NCBI GenBank assembly: GCA_003162425.1
Contig: PMOK01000284.1
Coordinates: 124,001 to 188,000 of the forward strand
Length of the DNA stretch: 64,000 nt
Direction of reading: 5' to 3'
DNA from: Bryobacterales bacterium
Lineage (GTDB): Bacteria > Acidobacteriota > Terriglobia > Bryobacterales > Bryobacteraceae
Below the pieces are notes generated by a model, which ran no database searches, had not been told where the DNA came from, and saw only the letters and a list, made by a program, of their open reading frames with translations. This document shows positions 15,615 through 24,119 of this stretch, in pieces (positions within the stretch are counted from its first letter, which is position 1; the number at the start of each line of letters is the position of its first letter). The translations under genes and the position numbers were made by a program.

Positions 15615-17120
15615 TCAAGGGCGCGCAGCCGCGCTTGCCACGTTGTCCGTCACCAACTGTGCCTTAGCTGCTTCCACCAGCCGGGTCACTTCGGCTATCA
15701 GTTCCTCGCGCCGCCTGTGCTCCTTCTCGTATGTCTCGGCCGCGTCGCGCAGATTCGAGCCGCAGTGCGGGCACGTCGTCTCATGGGGCCAGATGTATTG
15801 GTTACACGCGCGGCAGATATCCAGGGCGGGTGGGATGCGTCCATCGCGAGTCAACGGCGCGCCGCGAGACCGGCGGGTCAACTGCACCAAATCGTTTCGA
15901 GCCGGAGTGCGGCGGACCACTTCAGCAGGTCCCGCTCCATCGCCGGGAATCTGCTCCGCGATGAGCTCAAATTCGCCGACGCCGAACGACGCGGGCGAGG
16001 CTTCGCGCCGTTTCACAATCCGTTCGCGCAGCCCCTGCTTCCGGAGTTCGAGTACGCGGTAGTGGCAATACGGATTGTTGCCGGGGCGGCCCAGTAGCGA
16101 ATGCGAAGTCCAGGTGCAGCCGCCGCGGCAGACATCGGCGTAGTAGCAATCGCGGCAGAAGCCCCACAGGTCATTAACATCGCGGAGCCGTCCAAAATGG
16201 ATTTCGGGACTCGTCGCCCAGATTTGGTCCAGGCTCATGTCCCGCACGTTGCCTCCGGAGAAGCCGTTGGTGGCAAGCGATGGGCATCCCTTGACAGTGC
16301 CGTCCGCCTCGAGTGCCAGCACGGTGTGTCCGGCGCTGCAGCCAGTCCAATGCACGCGCTCGTCGCCTAGGCCTCGCCACAAATGTTCGTAGGGTCCGAA
16401 GTAACCAATGTTGTTGCCCACCACCATCAACAGCCCCCGTTCGACACCTTCGGAATAAAGGCGCGCGAGCAACGGCATAAACTCGGCGAGTTGATAGGGC
16501 TGCAACAGCAGATGGTCATTGTCCGCGGCATTTCCCATGGCGACGGTAAGCTGAATCTGCCAATGCGTGGCGCCGACATCGATTATCGTGTTCATCAACT
16601 CCGGCAGATGCGGCATTGTCTCAGAACCGATCTGCGTGTTGACGCTGATCCTCAACCCGGCAGCCTTAGCGCGACGCAGCGTATCCAGCGCACGGGCGAA
16701 GGAGCCGGGCACACCACGAACGCGGTCATGCAGCGCTTCCATGCCGTCCAGCGAGACTCCGATTCCCTGCAGTCCCGCGTCCACAGCAGCCGCTAGACGC
16801 TTGGGAGTGAGGTTCCGGCCGCCGGTCTGGATGGCGCAATACATCCCGTGGGACCGTATGGCGCGGACGATCTGGGTCCAGTCTGAACGCAGGTAGGCTT
16901 CGCCGCCGATCAGCGAGACCTCGCGGGTGCCTAGGCGCGCAAGATGCTCCACAACATCGAGGCATTCGGCGGTGGAGAGCTCGTTCGGCCGGCGGCGTCC
17001 CGCACGCGACCCACAATGCAGGCATTTCAGGTCACAGGCTAGCGTAATTTCCCACACGACGTGCACCGGAACGAAATTCCGATAGTCGTTTTCAACGCGG
17101 ATACGCGCGGGTTTCGGCAC
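15615..17120 (-). CDS. Radical SAM/SPASM enzyme, Y-X(10)-GDL-associated type
   Basis: The 501-residue protein has the radical SAM cluster motif C29-DLK-C33-LH-C36, the GGE motif ('SLIGGEAYLR'), and a SPASM domain with cysteines at 'WTGCSAGHTVLALEADGTVKGCPS' and 'FCRDCYYADVCRGGCTW' plus 'NPYCHYR', giving auxiliary Fe-S clusters. After about residue 400 there is an unusual tail: a zinc ribbon ('CRACNQYIWPHETTCPHCG') and a charged coiled coil. It lies 7 bases downstream of four DUF1843 peptides having the pattern Y-X(10)-G-D-[LVI], the known neighbours of this enzyme family. It probably modifies them. The start is GTG 17120 with AGGAA upstream. Confidence 0.92.
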   Translation of the reverse strand: MPKPARIRVENDYRNFVPVHVVWEITLACDLKCLHCGSRAGRRRPNELSTAECLDVVEHLARLGTREVSLIGGEAYLRSDWTQIVRAIRSHGMYCAIQTGGRNLTPKRLAAAVDAGLQGIGVSLDGMEALHDRVRGVPGSFARALDTLRRAKAAGLRISVNTQIGSETMPHLPELMNTIIDVGATHWQIQLTVAMGNAADNDHLLLQPYQLAEFMPLLARLYSEGVERGLLMVVGNNIGYFGPYEHLWRGLGDERVHWTGCSAGHTVLALEADGTVKGCPSLATNGFSGGNVRDMSLDQIWATSPEIHFGRLRDVNDLWGFCRDCYYADVCRGGCTWTSHSLLGRPGNNPYCHYRVLELRKQGLRERIVKRREASPASFGVGEFELIAEQIPGDGAGPAEVVRRTPARNDLVQLTRRSRGAPLTRDGRIPPALDICRACNQYIWPHETTCPHCGSNLRDAAETYEKEHRRREELIAEVTRLVEAAKAQLVTDNVASAAARP

Positions 17121-17127
17121 GCCGTTC

Positions 17128-17322
17128 CTACTTCTTATGCTCGGCTTTGGCTATCTCAATTTTAAGGGCTTGCAAAGCGGCGGGAAGGTCGCCAGCCTGT
17201 TGCAAGTACTGCTCCGCTTCCTGGGCGACTTGTTTCATGCGATTGATATCGCCGGAGCAGATCGCATCATGGATAGTCACTCCGTAGAGCGGGATTGGAT
17301 GGTGTTTTTCTTTTTCAGCCAT
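17128..17322 (-). CDS. DUF1843 peptide 1 (Y-X10-GDI)
   Basis: This 64-residue peptide carries 'LYGVTIHDAICSGDI', i.e. Y-X(10)-G-D-I, followed by 'NRMKQVAQEAEQYLQQ' and a lysine-rich end. It is the most diverged of four tandem copies and the only one with a Cys in the X10 stretch and a His replacing Gln. The ribosome binding site GAAGGAG is clear. It is immediately upstream of the radical SAM/SPASM gene, so it is the copy most tightly coupled to it. Probably a substrate of that enzyme; no modified residue is known to me. Confidence 0.85.
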   Translation of the reverse strand: MAEKEKHHPIPLYGVTIHDAICSGDINRMKQVAQEAEQYLQQAGDLPAALQALKIEIAKAEHKK

Positions 17323-17337
17323 GTTTACAATCTCCTT

Positions 17338-17535
17338 CTATTTCTTGCTCTTGTGTTCATGCTTGGCGATCTCGATTTTCAGGTATTCGAGAGCGGCCCC
17401 CACATCCCCGGCCTGCTGCAAGTGCTGTTCGGCCTCGGCGGCGAGTTGCTTCATCTTGGCCAGGTCGCCCTTTGCGATGGCTTCCTGGATTGGCGGCCCG
17501 TACGGAGGCACGGGGCCCCGGTCTGATTGCGCCAT
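17338..17535 (-). CDS. DUF1843 peptide 2 (Y-X10-GDL)
   Basis: This 65-residue paralogue has 'PYGPPIQEAIAKGDL' (Y-X(10)-G-D-L), then the helical 'KMKQLAAEAEQHLQQAGD' and 'AALEYLKIEIAKHEHKSKK'. AAAGGAGGG lies just upstream of the ATG. It is separated from copy 1 by 15 bases and from copy 3 by 15 bases, so the array is one transcript. The repeated helical unit could also be read as two short ankyrin- or TPR-like helices, with the N-terminal 10-15 residues variable between copies. Confidence 0.88.
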   Translation of the reverse strand: MAQSDRGPVPPYGPPIQEAIAKGDLAKMKQLAAEAEQHLQQAGDVGAALEYLKIEIAKHEHKSKK

Positions 17536-17550
17536 AAAAATCCCTCCTTT

Positions 17551-17742
17551 TTACTGTTTGCGCGAAAGCTTTGCGATTTCGATTTTCAAGTACTCGAGCG
17601 CGGCCCGCACATCGCCAACCTGCGCGAGGTGCTTCTCGGCTGCGGCTTCGAGCTGCTTCATCCGCGCCACATCGCCCTTCGCGATAGCTTCCTGGATAGG
17701 CGGTCCGTAAGGAACAATGGACGCTGGTTCTTTTTCCGCCAT
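17551..17742 (-). CDS. DUF1843 peptide 3 (Y-X10-GDV)
   Basis: This 63-residue paralogue contains 'PYGPPIQEAIAKGDV' and 'ARMKQLEAAAEKHLAQVGD'. The start at 17742 has GGAAGGA upstream; the listed ORF start at 17784 adds a non-conserved extension and is rejected. Together with copies 1, 2 and 4 it shows strong conservation of Y-G-P-P-I-Q-E-A-I-A-K-G-D and of the C-terminal 'AALEYLKIEIAK', with variation at the ends, as expected after recent duplication. Confidence 0.87.
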   Translation of the reverse strand: MAEKEPASIVPYGPPIQEAIAKGDVARMKQLEAAAEKHLAQVGDVRAALEYLKIEIAKLSRKQ

Positions 17743-17785
17743 AAGTCCTTCCTTGCTACCCGGGTTTCCACCCGGACTTATCAAC

Positions 17786-17968
17786 TCAATGAGGTTTGGT
17801 GGTTCGCGAAGCTTTCGCGATTTCGATCTTTAAATACTCAAGGGCCGCCCGCACGTCACCCGCTTGCTTGAGGTGTTCCTCGGCTTCCGCAGCAAGCTGC
17901 TTCATGCGCGGCAAATCCCCTTTTGCAATCGCCTCCTGGATGGGAGGACCGTAGAGTACAACAGCCAT
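17786..17968 (-). CDS. DUF1843 peptide 4 (first gene of the array)
   Basis: This 60-residue paralogue begins 'MAVVLYGPPIQEAIAKGDL', so its N-terminus before the Tyr is shorter than in the other copies. The longer ORF (18001) would place its start inside the promoter and is rejected. The -10 box ends only about 10 bases before the ATG and no ribosome binding site fits, so the message is probably leaderless or nearly so. It is the promoter-proximal copy of the operon leading to the radical SAM/SPASM gene. Confidence 0.85.
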   Translation of the reverse strand: MAVVLYGPPIQEAIAKGDLPRMKQLAAEAEEHLKQAGDVRAALEYLKIEIAKASRTTKPH

Positions 17969-17977
17969 AGGTTTTAA

Positions 17978-18006
17978 TTTATAACCGGTTTCTCGCAACA
18001 TGTCAA
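17978..18006 (-). promoter_or_regulatory. Promoter of the DUF1843 / radical SAM operon
   Basis: TTGACA (18001-18006) and TATAAA (17978-17983) on the minus strand are separated by 17 bases, an almost perfect sigma-70 promoter. The expected start site is within a few bases of the ATG at 17968. Confidence 0.7.
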
Positions 18007-18058: not shown

Positions 18059-18460
18059 TTAGTCAGGGGTTGCCGCGCGCCGGAATTCGTCGCCGGGCTC
18101 CTGAACTTCAGTGACAACCTGCGGGCAACGCAGGCACGCGGGCCGGCCTTCCTGGCGGAACCAACGGCATTCGTACCGAATCTTGCACGGCGGTAATGAT
18201 TCCACTACCGCCGGAAGAATCTGAACGATGCGGGATGCCAGGCGGCAATTCGCGCCGTCGAAGTGACGGCACGCGCCCTCTTCGCAGCGCGCGGCGAAAC
18301 GCAGAATCTCCGTGGGCTTGATTGCTCCCGTGAGATTCAGCCATCCTGTTGAAACCGGTACTGGATTTTCGAGATACGAAATCCGGGGCGCTTCCGGCGA
18401 TCCTCCACGAACACCGAGGATCACCGGTTCAGCCATCTCTGGCTGTGCGCTGGGACACAT
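18059..18460 (-). CDS. Cys-rich small protein of the radical SAM cluster
   Basis: The protein is about 133 residues; ATG choices are 18460 or 18436 ('MAEPVILG'), neither with a strong ribosome binding site. The C-terminal half contains regularly spaced cysteines: 'CEEGACRHFDGANCRLASR' and 'LPPCKIRYECRWFRQ', then 'CLRCPQVVT'. The pattern suggests one or two Fe-S or zinc sites. I recall similar small Cys-rich proteins next to peptide-modifying clusters, but do not know a function. It lies between the 95-residue peptide gene and the DUF1843 operon on the same strand. Confidence 0.72.
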   Translation of the reverse strand: MCPSAQPEMAEPVILGVRGGSPEAPRISYLENPVPVSTGWLNLTGAIKPTEILRFAARCEEGACRHFDGANCRLASRIVQILPAVVESLPPCKIRYECRWFRQEGRPACLRCPQVVTEVQEPGDEFRRAATPD

Positions 18461-18493
18461 CAAACTGCGATCAGTGGCCGTTATGGGGGCCTC

Positions 18494-18781
18494 CTACTCC
18501 TCGCGGAGCACAAAGCCCATGGTTGAGCCGCCAGGGAAGTTGGCAGCGACAGGATCTGCTTTAATCCCGGCCACCTTCGCAGTCACCTGTTTGGTAATTT
18601 CTTGAGCGGCGGCCTCTGCGTCAGCATGAGGAATCTGGGGTTGAATCCAGCGGCCGATGATGAGCCGGCTTTTGGCGATCTCCTGCGCGCCATGGGTTTT
18701 TTGCTGCTGGAGTTGGTGAACGGCGGCCGTAACCGCTTTTTCCAACTCGTTGAGACTGATCGTATGGGGTTGCTCAGCCAT
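18494..18781 (-). CDS. 95-residue peptide with GG motif, candidate RiPP precursor
   Basis: The ATG at 18781 has GAAGGAG upstream and a strong promoter follows further upstream. The product has a helical N-terminal region ('SLNELEKAVTAAVHQLQQQ'), a middle part ('AEAAAQEITKQVTAKVAGI') and a C-terminal tail 'NFPGGSTMGFVLREE' in which a Gly-Gly could mark a leader/core border. No cysteine is present. It is the first gene of the minus-strand unit and is divergent to the B12-type radical SAM gene. Precursor status is inferred from size and context; it may instead be a structural accessory protein. Confidence 0.7.
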   Translation of the reverse strand: MAEQPHTISLNELEKAVTAAVHQLQQQKTHGAQEIAKSRLIIGRWIQPQIPHADAEAAAQEITKQVTAKVAGIKADPVAANFPGGSTMGFVLREE

Positions 18782-18914: not shown

Positions 18915-20834
18915 ATGAAACCCGTGGCACTGATCAGCATGCCGACGCTTTCCGCGCGGTTCCCCTCTTTCCAGTTAGCCCTGCTGAAACCAACCCTGGA
19001 ACGGGCCGGGATTCCGGCGCAGACCTTTTCGCTCTTTATGTATTTTGGGACACGCATCGGCTGGAAGATCAACGAGGCGATTGCGGACGTGTGGCCCAGC
19101 ATGGTTGGTGAATGGATCTGGACGAAAGCCGCGTTCGGAGCGGAAATAGAAGCGCGCGATGAGGAGTATTTTGGCGCCTACGATTACATTTTCCGCGCGA
19201 TCTGCAAGCGCGCCGGGTGTACAACCAGGCGGTTTCAGAAAATTCGCGACAAAGATGCGCCTGAGTTCATCGATTTCTGCGTCGACGCCGTGGACTGGAA
19301 GCGGTTCGGCCTGATCGGTTTCTCAGTTGTGTTTCAGCAGAGCCTGGCCAGCATCGCTCTGGCAAAAGCGCTGAAAAAACGATACCCGGAGATCCCGATC
19401 GTGTTCGGGGGCGCGAGCCTGGAAGACGACATCGCTGACGAGATCATGCGCGGATGCCCCGAGGTCGACTATCTGCATTGCGGCGATGGCGAGATCTCGT
19501 TTCCCGAGATGGTCCATCGTCTGGACCGTGGTGAATCGATGCAGGGCCTGCGCGGCGTCATGTGGCGCAACGGAGGCAAGATCGAATACGCCGGGCGCGC
19601 GCCGAACTTTCAGGCGATGAATGAGACACCGATCCCGCAGTTTGACGAGTATTTTTACGCGCGCGAAGAAGGGGGTTATGAGGACTGGGATGAGGCCTGC
19701 GAGCCTATGCTCCCTATCGAATCGGCGCGCGGCTGCTGGTGGGGCGAAAAGCATCACTGCACCTTTTGCGGGCTGAACCGTTCCGGCATGGAGTTTCGCG
19801 CCAAGGACCCCGAGCGTGTCATTGAACAGATCGAGCACCTGTCGCGCAAACATGGCATCTACAGTTTCAACGCCATCGACAACATCATGGCGCCGGAGTA
19901 CACCGAAAAGCTTTTCCGGCGGCTCGCGGAGTCGAACACCGATGTGGAGTTGCACTACGAGATCCGCCCGAACTTCTCGCGCACGCAGCTAGGGCGAATG
20001 CGCAAGGGCGGCCTCACTTCGGTGCAGCCTGGCGTCGAAAGCCTGTCAACGAACATTCTGAAGAGTATGCGCAAGATGACGACGGGCATGCGGAATGTCG
20101 AACTCATTAAGTGGTGCACCTATCACGACATCAGTTGCATGTACAACATCCTGATGCGATTCCCGGGCGAGACCGTGGAAGATTACCGGATGCAGGCCGA
20201 ACTGGCGCCGAAGATCGTGCATTTGCAGCCGCCCTGGGGCATCGTGAAGGCTCGAGCCGACCGCGGCTCGCCGATGTATACGGATCCGGCATCGCAGTCC
20301 ATCCGGCGGCTCAAACCGGCCGTTTGCTACAACTACCTTTTCCCGAAGAAGTTCAATCTCGAACGAGTGTCATACTACTTCGATCACGAAATGGACAACG
20401 TGGTGGACGAGGAACATTACGACGACTTGCTGGAAGCCGTTGCGAAGTGGCAGGCCAGTTGGACGGAGCGCGGGCACCCCTACCTGCGCTATCGCAAGGC
20501 GTTGACCAGCATCACTATTGAAGACGGGCGGCGGCGCAAGCAGCGTAAATATCAGTACGCCGACGGCCCGGCGCTGTTGTATGAGTATTGCGCGGACGCT
20601 CGAACGCCTCGCGACATCGCGTCGGCCATGGGGACTGATCCATGGGTGCAGCAGGCCCTGGACGACTTCATCCGAAAAGATCTCATCCTATTCCTGGATG
20701 GCCGCTATTTAAGCCTCGCGCTTCCAGCCAATCCGAACTTCGAGATGTCCGTTGGTCCTCAAGCCGCGGCCCTACCGCAACAACGCCCCAGCGACGGTTT
20801 TGTGCCCGCGATCGAACTGGTCACGGTGAGATGA
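18915..20834 (+). CDS. B12-binding radical SAM RiPP C-methyltransferase (rSAM_ocin_1 type)
   Basis: The 639-residue protein has an N-terminal cobalamin-binding-like Rossmann part ('GLIGFSVVFQQSLASIALAKALKKRYPEIPIVFGGAS') and a radical SAM domain whose cluster motif has the unusual spacing C274-x7-C282-x2-C285 ('GCWWGEKHHCTFCG'), typical of the family annotated as RiPP maturation radical SAM C-methyltransferase. 'AIDNIMAPEY' and 'IRPNFSR' fit the barrel, and an extra C-terminal domain of about 170 residues follows. Such enzymes methylate unactivated carbons of peptide side chains. It is first in an operon with the fusion protein (ATGA overlap) and the repeat-containing putative precursor, which is the likely substrate. 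Confidence 0.9.
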   Translation: MKPVALISMPTLSARFPSFQLALLKPTLERAGIPAQTFSLFMYFGTRIGWKINEAIADVWPSMVGEWIWTKAAFGAEIEARDEEYFGAYDYIFRAICKRAGCTTRRFQKIRDKDAPEFIDFCVDAVDWKRFGLIGFSVVFQQSLASIALAKALKKRYPEIPIVFGGASLEDDIADEIMRGCPEVDYLHCGDGEISFPEMVHRLDRGESMQGLRGVMWRNGGKIEYAGRAPNFQAMNETPIPQFDEYFYAREEGGYEDWDEACEPMLPIESARGCWWGEKHHCTFCGLNRSGMEFRAKDPERVIEQIEHLSRKHGIYSFNAIDNIMAPEYTEKLFRRLAESNTDVELHYEIRPNFSRTQLGRMRKGGLTSVQPGVESLSTNILKSMRKMTTGMRNVELIKWCTYHDISCMYNILMRFPGETVEDYRMQAELAPKIVHLQPPWGIVKARADRGSPMYTDPASQSIRRLKPAVCYNYLFPKKFNLERVSYYFDHEMDNVVDEEHYDDLLEAVAKWQASWTERGHPYLRYRKALTSITIEDGRRRKQRKYQYADGPALLYEYCADARTPRDIASAMGTDPWVQQALDDFIRKDLILFLDGRYLSLALPANPNFEMSVGPQAAALPQQRPSDGFVPAIELVTVR

Positions 20835-23677
20835 GGGCCTCGACGGCTGTCTCCGCCAAACAGCAAACCGAACGCGAAGAACTGCTTGGGCTATTGCTCG
20901 AGCGCGGAATTCTGCAGCGCTCGGAAACGCAGCCCGTACTTTCACGCGACGGCTCATCAGCGCGCTGGATGCTGGATTCGCTCGCGGTGACGCTGACTCC
21001 GCGCGGTGCTGAGCTTGCTGGGCGGATGGTCCTGGAGCAATTGCAGAGATTCGACGGGCGACAATTGGCGGCGTACGGGCTGACCGCCGTTCCCATCCTG
21101 CAATCGGCTGTGCTGCAGTCCAGCGGCCGCTATAAGGGATTGCTAGTCCGTAGCGAACGCAAGCCGCACGGATCGCAAAAGTTGATCGAAGGCCAATTCG
21201 ATCCGGACGAGCCCGTGATCCTGATCGAGGATTCGATAGCGTCGGGGATGAGCGCGCGGGAGGGCGTTCAGAAGCTGGAGGAAGCAGGCCTGCGCGTGGA
21301 GGGATGCGTCGCGTTGGTCCGCTTCGGTTGGGAAGGCGGCTGTTCAGATTTCGCGGAACGCGGCTACCACGTGGAAGCGATCTACGACATCTTTGAAGAC
21401 TTGATGTCTCGCATGGAAAGTGAAAAGGGACCGGATTATAACCCTACCAAATGGTTTCCCGAATTTAGCTGGGGTGCACGCCGCGCGCCCGAGGGACTGC
21501 ATCCGGCACACCTGGCGCGCGAGGTCCTGCGTGAATACTTTACCAGCGGTGAATGGCTGGCGCCGCCGCGCTCGCTCGATCGGGATGACTACGATTCCCA
21601 TGGTGGCGCGTGGGTGAGCATCCGTTCGCGCGAGGACATCCATGATCGGCACGCGCGCGACGGCTTTTGGCATTTTCCGAATGAGAGGTCATGGGGCGTT
21701 GCCGAAGATGTTGTTCGCGCTGCTGTACGAACGGCTCGCGAACTGCCAAAGGGATCCGACGCGCTGAAGTTGATCGAATCGAGCTACGTCGCGGTGACTT
21801 TCTTTTCCGCCCTCGAAGCGGCGACGGTGGGAGAGCTGGACAACAATCGTTACGGGATTGTGGTGGTGAGTGGCGAACGGCCCGAGATCATGGGCGGCGC
21901 ATTACCTCGGATGCCGGGGGTTCGCGATGAATGGCAGCAGTTCCATCATGCCCGAATCAACAATGCGCAACTCTACGAGTACGAGCCTTACGTTATCTAT
22001 CGGCACGCGGTGTCGAAGTTCGTCGAGCCCGGCGCACCTTGGCAATCGAGCGGCGTTCCTGGCTCTGACGAGTCGCCGGACCTGGGAGCGCTCGCAAGGC
22101 ACGCGCGAGATCTGGTCCTGGGCCGCGAGCGGCGCGAACCGCTCCCGCAGATAACGCTGACGGAAACGGTGAAGCAGCTATTCGTCACTATTTATGTGGA
22201 TGGCGAGCCCTGCGGCTGCATGGGCTCCGGAATCGGTGACTTGGAGAACGATCTGCGTACGCTGACGAAAGCCGCGCTTCAAGATGAGCGGTTCGAGCAC
22301 CCGGAGATCGACGAAGACGCGAGCGTAGCGGTGAGTGTTTCGCTGCTCTCCAATGAACTAGAGATGGGTGACTTCTCGCCCGAAGAGGTGCGGAGCAAGT
22401 ATCGGCACGGCCAACAGGCTCTCATGGTGGAACAGAACCCGCGGTCCGGCATGCTTCTGCCGTTCATGACGTCGTGGCTCAGCCTGGACGCGGAGGGCTT
22501 TGTTGACGAAGTGCTCGACAAAGCCGGCGTCACCCGAGCTCCCTATAACTGGATCCGCTTCGATTGCGATACGTGGCTGGCCGATGAAGACGGCGTTGGA
22601 AAACTGGAGGGTGGTTTCAATCGTCTAACTCCGACGTTGCAGGCGGACGAGATTGCGCGGCTGCACGTCGACTATCTGCTTCGCAACCAGCGTGAGGACG
22701 GGGCGCTATACTTCGGCTATTACGTTTTCGAAAACATGTTGTATCAAGGGATCGACATGACGCGGCTGGCGCACGGCGCCTGGACTCTGGCGCGCGCCGG
22801 AAAGTCTGATGCCGCCGCATCCGCTCTGAAGCACATCCTTGGTCACGCTGACGACCCGGTGACGGGCCTCGCCCGCGATGCTTTTTTGCTTCTGACGCTG
22901 TGTGAGCCGGGCATGCAAGAGATGGTTAGCCGGTCGAAGCTTGCAGAAAAGTTATGGGCGTCGATCGACCGGCACGGGCGGGTCACAACGTGGGTTCCCG
23001 CGGCTCCAAGTGAAGATGACGACACCGGCGATGAGAGCGCTTCCGAAGAGGTGTCGCCTGAAGATCTTCAGAATTATGTGCCGGGTCAGGTTTTGCTCGC
23101 CTTGGCAGCGGCGGTGCGGACGGGTGCGACGGACGCGGACGAACGGAAGATCGAAAGCGCGTTCCGTTATTACCGTCACCGGTTCCGGTACAAGCGCGAT
23201 TTCGGCCAGGTTTCGTGGATGTCGCTCGCGGCGGCGGCATGGTGGCGCCTGAGGGAGCGGCGCGAGTTCGCCGATTTCCTTTTCGAGATTACCGACTTTA
23301 TCCTGACGTTCCAGCAGACTCACCCCGAGCAGGCGACACCAGGCGCGTTCCTGACTGGCCAACAGCCCGACCCGCCGGGATTCACCACGGCGGTTTATCT
23401 GGAGGCGGTGGCGTCTGCGCTCGACGTCGCGTCCGCGCTCTCAGACACAGCTAGGGAACACCGGTACGATGATGCGTGGCGGCTTGGTTTCACTTTCCTC
23501 GGCCGGCTAATCATTCAGGATCGCGATTCATCGATTCTGCCGAACGCCGAGTACGCGGTGGGTGGGCTCCGGGAAAACCTCTACAGCGGCCACGTCCGTA
23601 TCGACTTTGTTCAGCATTCCCTCGCCGCGATCATGGAGCGGCATCCAGATGTTTTCGTAAACAATCAGACAGATTAG
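20831..23677 (+). CDS. Phosphoribosyltransferase-AMMECR1-alpha/alpha toroid fusion protein
   Basis: The real start is ATG 20831, overlapping the upstream stop (ATGA); the listed 20642 start runs inside the radical SAM gene. The 948 residues show three parts. Residues 1-200 resemble a type I phosphoribosyltransferase, with the PRPP-loop motif 'VILIEDSIASGMSA' at about 129-142. Residues about 410-590 resemble AMMECR1 ('GEPCGCMGSGIGDLENDLRTL', 'EDASVAVSVSLLSNE'); the stretch 230-400 ('HPAHLAREVLREYF') may be a diverged first AMMECR1 copy. From about 600 on, repeated helical pairs ('ARLHVDYLLRNQREDGALYF', 'TRLAHGAWTLARAG') suggest an alpha/alpha toroid. AMMECR1 is known in the Amme-Memo-radical SAM family. 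A peptide-tailoring role is inferred from position. Confidence 0.85.
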   Translation: MRASTAVSAKQQTEREELLGLLLERGILQRSETQPVLSRDGSSARWMLDSLAVTLTPRGAELAGRMVLEQLQRFDGRQLAAYGLTAVPILQSAVLQSSGRYKGLLVRSERKPHGSQKLIEGQFDPDEPVILIEDSIASGMSAREGVQKLEEAGLRVEGCVALVRFGWEGGCSDFAERGYHVEAIYDIFEDLMSRMESEKGPDYNPTKWFPEFSWGARRAPEGLHPAHLAREVLREYFTSGEWLAPPRSLDRDDYDSHGGAWVSIRSREDIHDRHARDGFWHFPNERSWGVAEDVVRAAVRTARELPKGSDALKLIESSYVAVTFFSALEAATVGELDNNRYGIVVVSGERPEIMGGALPRMPGVRDEWQQFHHARINNAQLYEYEPYVIYRHAVSKFVEPGAPWQSSGVPGSDESPDLGALARHARDLVLGRERREPLPQITLTETVKQLFVTIYVDGEPCGCMGSGIGDLENDLRTLTKAALQDERFEHPEIDEDASVAVSVSLLSNELEMGDFSPEEVRSKYRHGQQALMVEQNPRSGMLLPFMTSWLSLDAEGFVDEVLDKAGVTRAPYNWIRFDCDTWLADEDGVGKLEGGFNRLTPTLQADEIARLHVDYLLRNQREDGALYFGYYVFENMLYQGIDMTRLAHGAWTLARAGKSDAAASALKHILGHADDPVTGLARDAFLLLTLCEPGMQEMVSRSKLAEKLWASIDRHGRVTTWVPAAPSEDDDTGDESASEEVSPEDLQNYVPGQVLLALAAAVRTGATDADERKIESAFRYYRHRFRYKRDFGQVSWMSLAAAAWWRLRERREFADFLFEITDFILTFQQTHPEQATPGAFLTGQQPDPPGFTTAVYLEAVASALDVASALSDTAREHRYDDAWRLGFTFLGRLIIQDRDSSILPNAEYAVGGLRENLYSGHVRIDFVQHSLAAIMERHPDVFVNNQTD

Positions 23678-23687
23678 GAGAATCAGA

Positions 23688-24119
23688 ATGGCAGCTAAGA
23701 AACGACCAACGAAAAAGCGAAAGAAGCCAGGCGTGATAGTAGAAGTTGCGCCACCTAGAAAGAAGAAGCCGTACGGGCCGGTTGTAGAGGTCGCGCCCGG
23801 TAAGAGGCCGAAGGGCCGGCCGATCGTCGAGGTCGCACCGCCGAGGAAGGGCAAGAAGAAGGCGGGGTCGCGAGTCACTGAAGTGGCTCCAATGACGAGG
23901 CGAAAGCGGCCGGCCAGCGGAGTGATCGTGGAAGTGGCTCCGGAAATCGCACCCGATATCGCGAGGAAGTCGCGCGGAGTGATCAAGGAGATGGCGCCGG
24001 CATTGAAGAGGAGATCGGCGGGGACAATCAAGGAGATTGCGCCTGCGACGAAGAGAAAGGGGAATTCGAGACCAGGCGTGATCGTGGAAGTTGCGCCGCC
24101 AGTGGACAAGAAACAGTAG
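23688..24119 (+). CDS. Repetitive basic peptide, candidate multicore RiPP precursor
   Basis: The 143-residue product has eight copies of a short core with consensus G-[VTP]-[IV]-[VKT]-E-[VIM]-A-P, with the Glu at residues 19, 34, 48, 65, 82, 101, 116 and 134, plus a partial EIAP at 86-89. The cores are separated by Lys/Arg-rich spacers such as 'PRKKKPYG' and 'PRKGKKKAG'. Spacing of the Glu residues is 14-19. There is no long leader; residues 1-13 are just basic. AGGAG lies 7 bases before the ATG, and it is 10 bases after the fusion protein gene. No cysteines or aromatic residues occur in the cores. Alternative: a histone H1-like basic protein, but the conserved acidic core argues against that. 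Confidence 0.85.
   Translation: MAAKKRPTKKRKKPGVIVEVAPPRKKKPYGPVVEVAPGKRPKGRPIVEVAPPRKGKKKAGSRVTEVAPMTRRKRPASGVIVEVAPEIAPDIARKSRGVIKEMAPALKRRSAGTIKEIAPATKRKGNSRPGVIVEVAPPVDKKQ
23730..24107 (+). repeat. Eight tandem E-[VIM]-A-P core repeats inside the precursor gene
   Basis: At the DNA level the copies vary synonymously and by substitution (for example gtagaagttgcgcc, gtagaggtcgcgcc, atcgaggtcgcac-like variants), so the protein motif and not the DNA has been kept. Copies 1, 5 and 8 share the full G-V-I-V-E-V-A-P form; copies 6 and 7 have K before E and M or I after it. The pattern of repeated units with variable spacers is typical of multicore peptide precursors. Confidence 0.8.

Follow-up and report, generated by a model that had tools for sequence, protein, structure and literature searches.

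A predicted splicease-type radical SAM/SPASM enzyme beside four tandem DUF1843 peptides in an acidobacterium

Operons encoding DUF1842 and DUF1843 domains are strongly induced by quorum sensing in Chromobacterium (PMC12114271) and in stationary phase in Burkholderia thailandensis (PMC12322963). They have no known function, and the structural work on them left radical S-adenosylmethionine (SAM) modification out of account (PMC10994174). What a radical SAM enzyme does beside such domains is the question raised by a 64,000-nucleotide stretch of a Bryobacterales genome, referred to here as the window (GCA_003162425.1, contig PMOK01000284.1, positions 124,001 to 188,000 of the forward strand), in which four small DUF1843 proteins, P1 to P4, are followed by a radical SAM/SPASM enzyme. 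The enzyme belongs to TIGR03913, and the four DUF1843 peptides are its predicted substrates. Judged by its sequence, the enzyme is probably of the splicease type and works like PlpX, and the chemistry of DUF1843 cassettes probably has a known precedent.

The cassette and the family of its enzyme

Contig C38, which holds the window, belongs to an 8.7 Mb genome with no DUF1843 domain beyond P1–P4; on the minus strand these peptides (60–65 residues) precede the 501-residue enzyme. An earlier note, made from the letters of this DNA, had described four tandem DUF1843 peptides with Y-X(10)-GD[LVI] next to a SPASM radical SAM enzyme with a zinc-ribbon tail, and this description is borne out. All four peptides exceed the PF08898 gathering cut-off of 23.3 bits, the common pattern Y-x-x-x-I-x-x-A-I-x-x-G-D is exact in each, and the spacing ends in GDL (P1), GDV (P2), GDL (P3) and GDI (P4). 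The closest named relative at the locus is L007, an uncultured Bryobacteraceae bacterium (Acidobacteriota) with an enzyme of 89% identity. The P1 start at 17968 was placed from its orthologue, which begins MAAVLYG; L007 does not retain the ATG found farther upstream in the window, at 18001. Against L007, nonsynonymous divergence (dN) is lower than synonymous divergence (dS) in each of the five genes of the cassette (P1, 0.10 vs 1.27; P3, 0.16 vs 1.26; enzyme, 0.07 vs 1.16), with the weakest signal in P2 (0.21 vs 0.43); purifying selection of this kind marks them as real genes.

The enzyme scores 859.4 bits with TIGR03913 (cut-off 592), covering profile positions 3–476 of 477. The radical SAM CxxxCxxC is present with C29, C33 and C36 invariant, PF04055 and PF13186 are both above their cut-offs, and the zinc-ribbon-like tail follows. 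In the NCBIfam comparison its second family is TIGR04103 at 448.7 bits and its third reaches 164 bits; reciprocally, TIGR04103 proteins score 808–845 bits with their own profile, 414–416 with TIGR03913 and at most 159 with any other. In a tree of 31 TIGR03913, 17 TIGR04103-type, 2 third-clade and 3 outgroup sequences, TIGR03913 forms one clade (Shimodaira–Hasegawa-like approximate likelihood ratio test, SH-aLRT, 99) and TIGR04103 another (95), and the two are joined at 81. By both directions of comparison and by the tree, TIGR04103 is the nearest family and the two are paired. Identity of the enzyme to TIGR04103-type proteins is 41–46%, with the common blocks W-Q-x-Q-x-T, GNNxGYxGP, KGCPSL, WGxC and GNNPxCH. 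The AlphaFold2 model of the enzyme has a predicted local distance difference test score (pLDDT) of 86; its best PDB matches are SkfB, PqqE, SuiB and anSME, with no solved splicease among them.

We take IPR026482 to be TIGR04103 (Nif11-class maturase 3). The cyanobacterial TIGR04103 loci support this: their precursors are Nif11 proteins with LYG and MYG cores, and a small gene directly follows that of the enzyme. PlpX is reported to be a SPASM enzyme of IPR026482 that cuts tyramine out of Xaa-Tyr-Gly, acting together with PlpY on Nif11- and nitrile-hydratase-like precursors (NHLP) (PMC11002830; PMC10533398). The native sites of PlpXY are MYG and LYG; a tyramine equivalent is excised, the leader is dispensable and these sources describe only X-Y-G sites (PMC10533398; PMC11002830). 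The earlier note had called the chemistry of the DUF1843-associated enzymes undescribed, a view that is not supported when the nearest family is equated with the characterised PlpX spliceases acting on X-Y-G.

Two further enzymes (L111, L112) form a third splicease-like clade. Beside L111, a small zinc-ribbon protein is encoded upstream of the enzyme (L151 4264–4602, minus strand); it carries a lipobox-like LAACYGAPPP after the zinc ribbon and is possibly a lipoprotein with a C-Y-G site.

The conserved tyrosine and the predicted reaction

Motifs were counted in 215 distinct DUF1843 domains, aligned in register, from 82 distinct enzyme loci of Acidobacteriota, Pseudomonadota, Cyanobacteriota and Bacteroidota. 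Tyrosine is present in 215/215, which agrees with the earlier proposal that it is the likely target. The preceding residue is only ever L (135), P (70) or M (10), the following one is G (110), A (103) or M (2), position −2 is P in 145/215, and GD stands at +11/+12 in most domains. Nif11 precursors beside TIGR04103 enzymes carry LYG (23), MYG (10) or IYG (3) within P-[LM]-Y-G-V, a context that much of DUF1843 has as well. Because Nif11 and DUF1843 precursors are different proteins, a common enzyme chemistry is the best explanation for the five-residue site that they share.

The copy nearest the enzyme, P4, had been noted for the loss of most of a conserved PPIQ and the gain of a Cys. The Cys is rare but is shared with the L007 orthologue. 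The supposed loss does not stand: YGVTIHD of P4 is typical of the family (V at +2 in 136/215), and YGPPIQ of P1–P3 is a derived minority form (P at +2 in 10/215). A degenerate P4 was therefore rejected, since it carries the family-typical YGVxI.

As a separate observation, P-Y is followed by G in 70/70 domains and L/M-Y in 40/145 (Fisher's test 3e-28, inflated by relatedness), A being the commoner residue after L/M-Y, and many TIGR03913 loci have a single P-Y-G paralogue.

The earlier note stated that this enzyme family occurs beside peptides with Y-X(10)-GDL, and a DUF1843 domain with Y-X10-GD is indeed present at 82/82 distinct TIGR03913 enzyme loci. Among 300 sampled genomes of Burkholderiaceae, the family of Trinickia, eight have DUF1843, and the enzyme adjoins it in 8/8. 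This strict mutual presence, together with a tyrosine more conserved than the helices, identifies the DUF1843 peptide as the likely enzyme substrate. The same two observations argue against DUF1843 proteins being structural, self-assembling paralogues beside an enzyme that modifies something else or is unrelated. The repetition of DUF1843 paralogues within operons, taken as a sign of assembly, did prompt structural work on them, but the DUF1842-DUF1843 protein tested formed no oligomers (PMC10994174), and an assembly role is very improbable.

As a splicease, the enzyme would remove tyramine at the X-Y-G sites of P1–P4 and leave an electrophilic ketoamide at residue X. The target site would lie in a flexible N-terminal segment, just ahead of the helical DUF1843 domain. 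In the P3 model (pLDDT 72), residues 1–8 are disordered and helices span residues 13–22, 25–42 and 46–64, which would place the PYG site at the order–disorder boundary, at the start of helix 1; a Foldseek search with the peptide returned no match. The DUF1843 domain, with its Y-X10-GD spacing, may serve as the recognition element, in the role of the leader of a ribosomally synthesised and post-translationally modified peptide (RiPP) but C-terminal of the site. The product would be a ketoamide-bearing small protein, for which spliceotides, by analogy, suggest protease binding as the likeliest activity. With this prediction, the question of what DUF1843 does comes down to one mass measurement.

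Several observations weigh against this assignment. The enzyme stays well below the curated TIGR04103 cut-off of 725 bits. Support for the branch that unites the two families is modest, and the tree was built quickly and has very long outgroup branches. The equation of TIGR04103 with PlpX rests on the InterPro number (PMC11002830), the name of that entry and the Nif11/LYG/MYG context, not on the PlpX sequence. The 215 domains come from a Pseudomonas-heavy sample and are far from independent. About half of the sites elsewhere are Y-A, and two are Y-M, vs the X-Y-G of PlpX. P-Y-G sites would be expected to yield a proline-derived residue, of which we know no natural example. Finally, PlpXY works as a complex, and no PlpY-like gene was found in the TIGR03913 loci.

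The missed cut-off, the common Y-A sites and the absent PlpY-like gene, together with the extra tail, also speak for another SPASM reaction at the tyrosine: a crosslink with an adjacent residue or with the Cys of P4, a mycofactocin-like oxidation or decarboxylation, or an epimerisation, with the chemistry changed after divergence from the spliceases. SPASM enzymes as a class perform many such reactions. However, none of the other characterised families approaches the TIGR04103 score on this enzyme: those for crosslink, thioether and mycofactocin-like chemistry stay below 137 bits (mycofactocin 136, PqqE 111, StsB 100, SkfB 81). A crosslink or thioether is further disfavoured because no side chain of the site except the tyrosine is invariant: neither a Cys nor any other partner residue is conserved, and the P4 Cys is nearly unique. 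The residues flanking the tyrosine (L/M/P before, G/A after) are small or aliphatic and unreactive, which fits chemistry on the backbone. A different SPASM reaction is accordingly judged unlikely, and the Tyr-derived crosslinks that the earlier note proposed to look for are not favoured by the TIGR04103 relationship, with its equation to PlpX, or by the conserved X-Y-[G/A].

The enzyme tail and comparison with known systems

The tail had been described as unusual, but a CxxC...CPxC tail is found in 80/82 TIGR03913 enzymes. The two exceptions, L065 and L084, end before the tail, L065 probably at a contig end. The tail is missing from all 22 enzymes of the TIGR04103 search set. In the enzyme model, a long C-terminal helix (457–499) follows the zinc-ribbon-like part. 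A small gene stands directly 3' of the enzyme beside 14 TIGR04103 enzymes and, from this position, is taken to be plpY. A PlpY-like gene was present in none of the TIGR03913 loci (best E 0.32), in a search that covered the loci, not the rest of the genome. It is reasonable to suppose that the fused zinc-ribbon and helix tail replaces PlpY; the tail would then stand in for the separate protein within a single polypeptide.

With the PlpXY systems of cyanobacteria (TIGR04103, Nif11/NHLP), the cassette shares a sister enzyme with radical SAM CxxxCxxC and SPASM domain, X-Y-G sites (LYG, PYG, PYG and LYG in P1–P4), an [LM]-Y-G-V site and a Cys-rich neighbour in the same order. It differs in the zinc-ribbon tail, in the score below the TIGR04103 cut-off and in the lack of a PlpY-like gene in the locus. 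The precursors are DUF1843 proteins and not Nif11/NHLP; helices follow the site in the window, whereas in PlpXY a Nif11 leader precedes it, and Y-A and P-Y-G sites occur in the DUF1843 family. Because the enzyme falls short of the TIGR04103 cut-off, and neither a PlpY partner nor a Nif11 leader was found, the cassette was not classed with the PlpXY systems.

TIGR03913/DUF1843 cassettes of Burkholderia, Chromobacterium, Pseudomonas and others resemble that of the window in enzyme family, tail and adjoining Y-X10-GD DUF1843. At many proteobacterial loci, two DUF1843 domains form the C-terminal part of DUF1842 beta-barrel proteins (PMC10994174), whereas the window has four stand-alone ones; a C-methyltransferase gene and a Cys-rich gene also adjoin the cassette in the window, unlike the proteobacterial ones. 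The protein BPSS0212 (DUF1842-DUF1843; PDB 8t0b, 8t1m, 8t1n) likewise has a DUF1843 domain with an MYG site. In contrast to the window peptides, it is fused to a DUF1842 barrel; it was made alone in Escherichia coli, its DUF1843 part is unresolved, and the structure paper mentions no radical SAM enzyme (PMC10994174).

A separate question concerns novelty, not mechanism: the cassette could be one more example of a splicease–protein system that has been characterised before, so that the window adds nothing new. TIGR03913 and PF08898 are established families. On the other side, no literature linking DUF1843 or TIGR03913 to tyramine excision was found, in a search that did not cover Scott et al. 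2022, and the two outcomes seem evenly balanced. If the prediction is true, a PlpY-free splicease acting ahead of a helical domain would be useful for labelling proteins, a purpose that PlpXY already serves (PMC10533398).

Neighbouring genes

The features of the locus are collected in Table 1.

Table 1. Features of the DUF1843 cassette and adjoining genes, in window coordinates
Feature	Position	Strand	Evidence or remark
Radical SAM/SPASM enzyme, 501 residues, GTG start	15615..17120	-	TIGR03913 859 bits; Radical_SAM and SPASM domains; AlphaFold2; tree
Zinc-ribbon-like CxxC...CPHC of enzyme tail, about residues 436-455	15756..15815	-	weak zf-ChsH2 match
P4, DUF1843, 64 residues	17128..17322	-	81.6 bits PF08898; LYG site; upstream AAGGAGA
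L-Y-G site of P4	17281..17289	-	sequence; conserved column
P3, DUF1843, 65 residues	17338..17535	-	80.5 bits PF08898; PYG site; upstream AGGAGG
P-Y-G site of P3	17497..17505	-	sequence; conserved column
P2, DUF1843, 63 residues	17551..17742	-	72.7 bits PF08898; PYG site; ATG 17742
P-Y-G site of P2	17704..17712	-	sequence; conserved column
P1, DUF1843, 60 residues	17786..17968	-	72.0 bits PF08898; LYG site; ATG 17968
L-Y-G site of P1	17948..17956	-	sequence; conserved column
Cys-rich protein, 134 residues, without Pfam match	18059..18463	-	45-49% identity to gene of cyanobacterial TIGR04103 clusters
95-residue protein upstream of Cys-rich gene	18494..18781	-	weak homologue L148 9665-9928
B12-binding radical SAM, TIGR03975 RiPP maturation C-methyltransferase	18915..20834	+	546 bits vs cut-off 282; divergent from array
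Large open reading frame with AMMECR1 domain	20831-23677	+	after C-methyltransferase; also in L007
Lys/Arg-rich 143-residue protein, nine E[VIM]AP repeats	23688..24119	+	repeat type common to L065

The Cys-rich family has the pattern CPSA...CxHFDG..CRLA...CRW.xQEG..AC.RCPQ, and the order of Cys-rich gene, precursors and radical SAM gene is the same in the window and in cyanobacterial TIGR04103 clusters (L149, L150). Among 244 cyanobacterial genomes, 12 have the gene intact, 14 have TIGR04103 over the cut-off, and the two coincide in 10 (P 4e-13, not corrected for relatedness). The gene is accessory at most, because it occurs without an adjoining radical SAM gene in two other acidobacteria. It is also absent from other TIGR03913 loci, with a remnant in L007; as a splicease-specific gene it was accepted only in part. 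The homologue of the 95-residue protein (32% identity over 87 residues, E 1e-5) pairs with the Cys-rich gene in L148, another acidobacterium, with no radical SAM gene alongside.

The TIGR03975 gene is divergent from the DUF1843 array also in L007 (1725–3716) and in L155 (10784–12670), a distant acidobacterium whose enzyme has 52% identity. TIGR03975 occurs in 22/294 sampled Acidobacteriota genomes and lies within about 2 kb of the array in both sampled genomes with TIGR03913; a rough estimate from these counts puts the probability that chance alone gave this adjacency in the two genomes at far less than 1 in a million. The arrangement suggests a second modification, with TIGR03975 as a possible second enzyme of the cluster. 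The E[VIM]AP-repeat protein is possibly a further substrate; in the related locus L065 (1287–1886), a single protein has E[VIM]AP repeats fused ahead of a DUF1843 domain. A tentative extension, less secure than the splicease assignment, is that two enzymes act in one pathway in the Acidobacteriota cassette. A single-component splicease, its tail replacing PlpY, would edit folded DUF1843 proteins at X-Y-G, and TIGR03975 would methylate either these or the linked E[VIM]AP-repeat protein; the products would be small proteins with an edited backbone and C-methylation. A methyltransferase-like gene is also found near TIGR03913 in L066, L067, L068, L074, L084 and L086, from cyanobacteria, alphaproteobacteria, Bacteroidota and Acidobacteriota.
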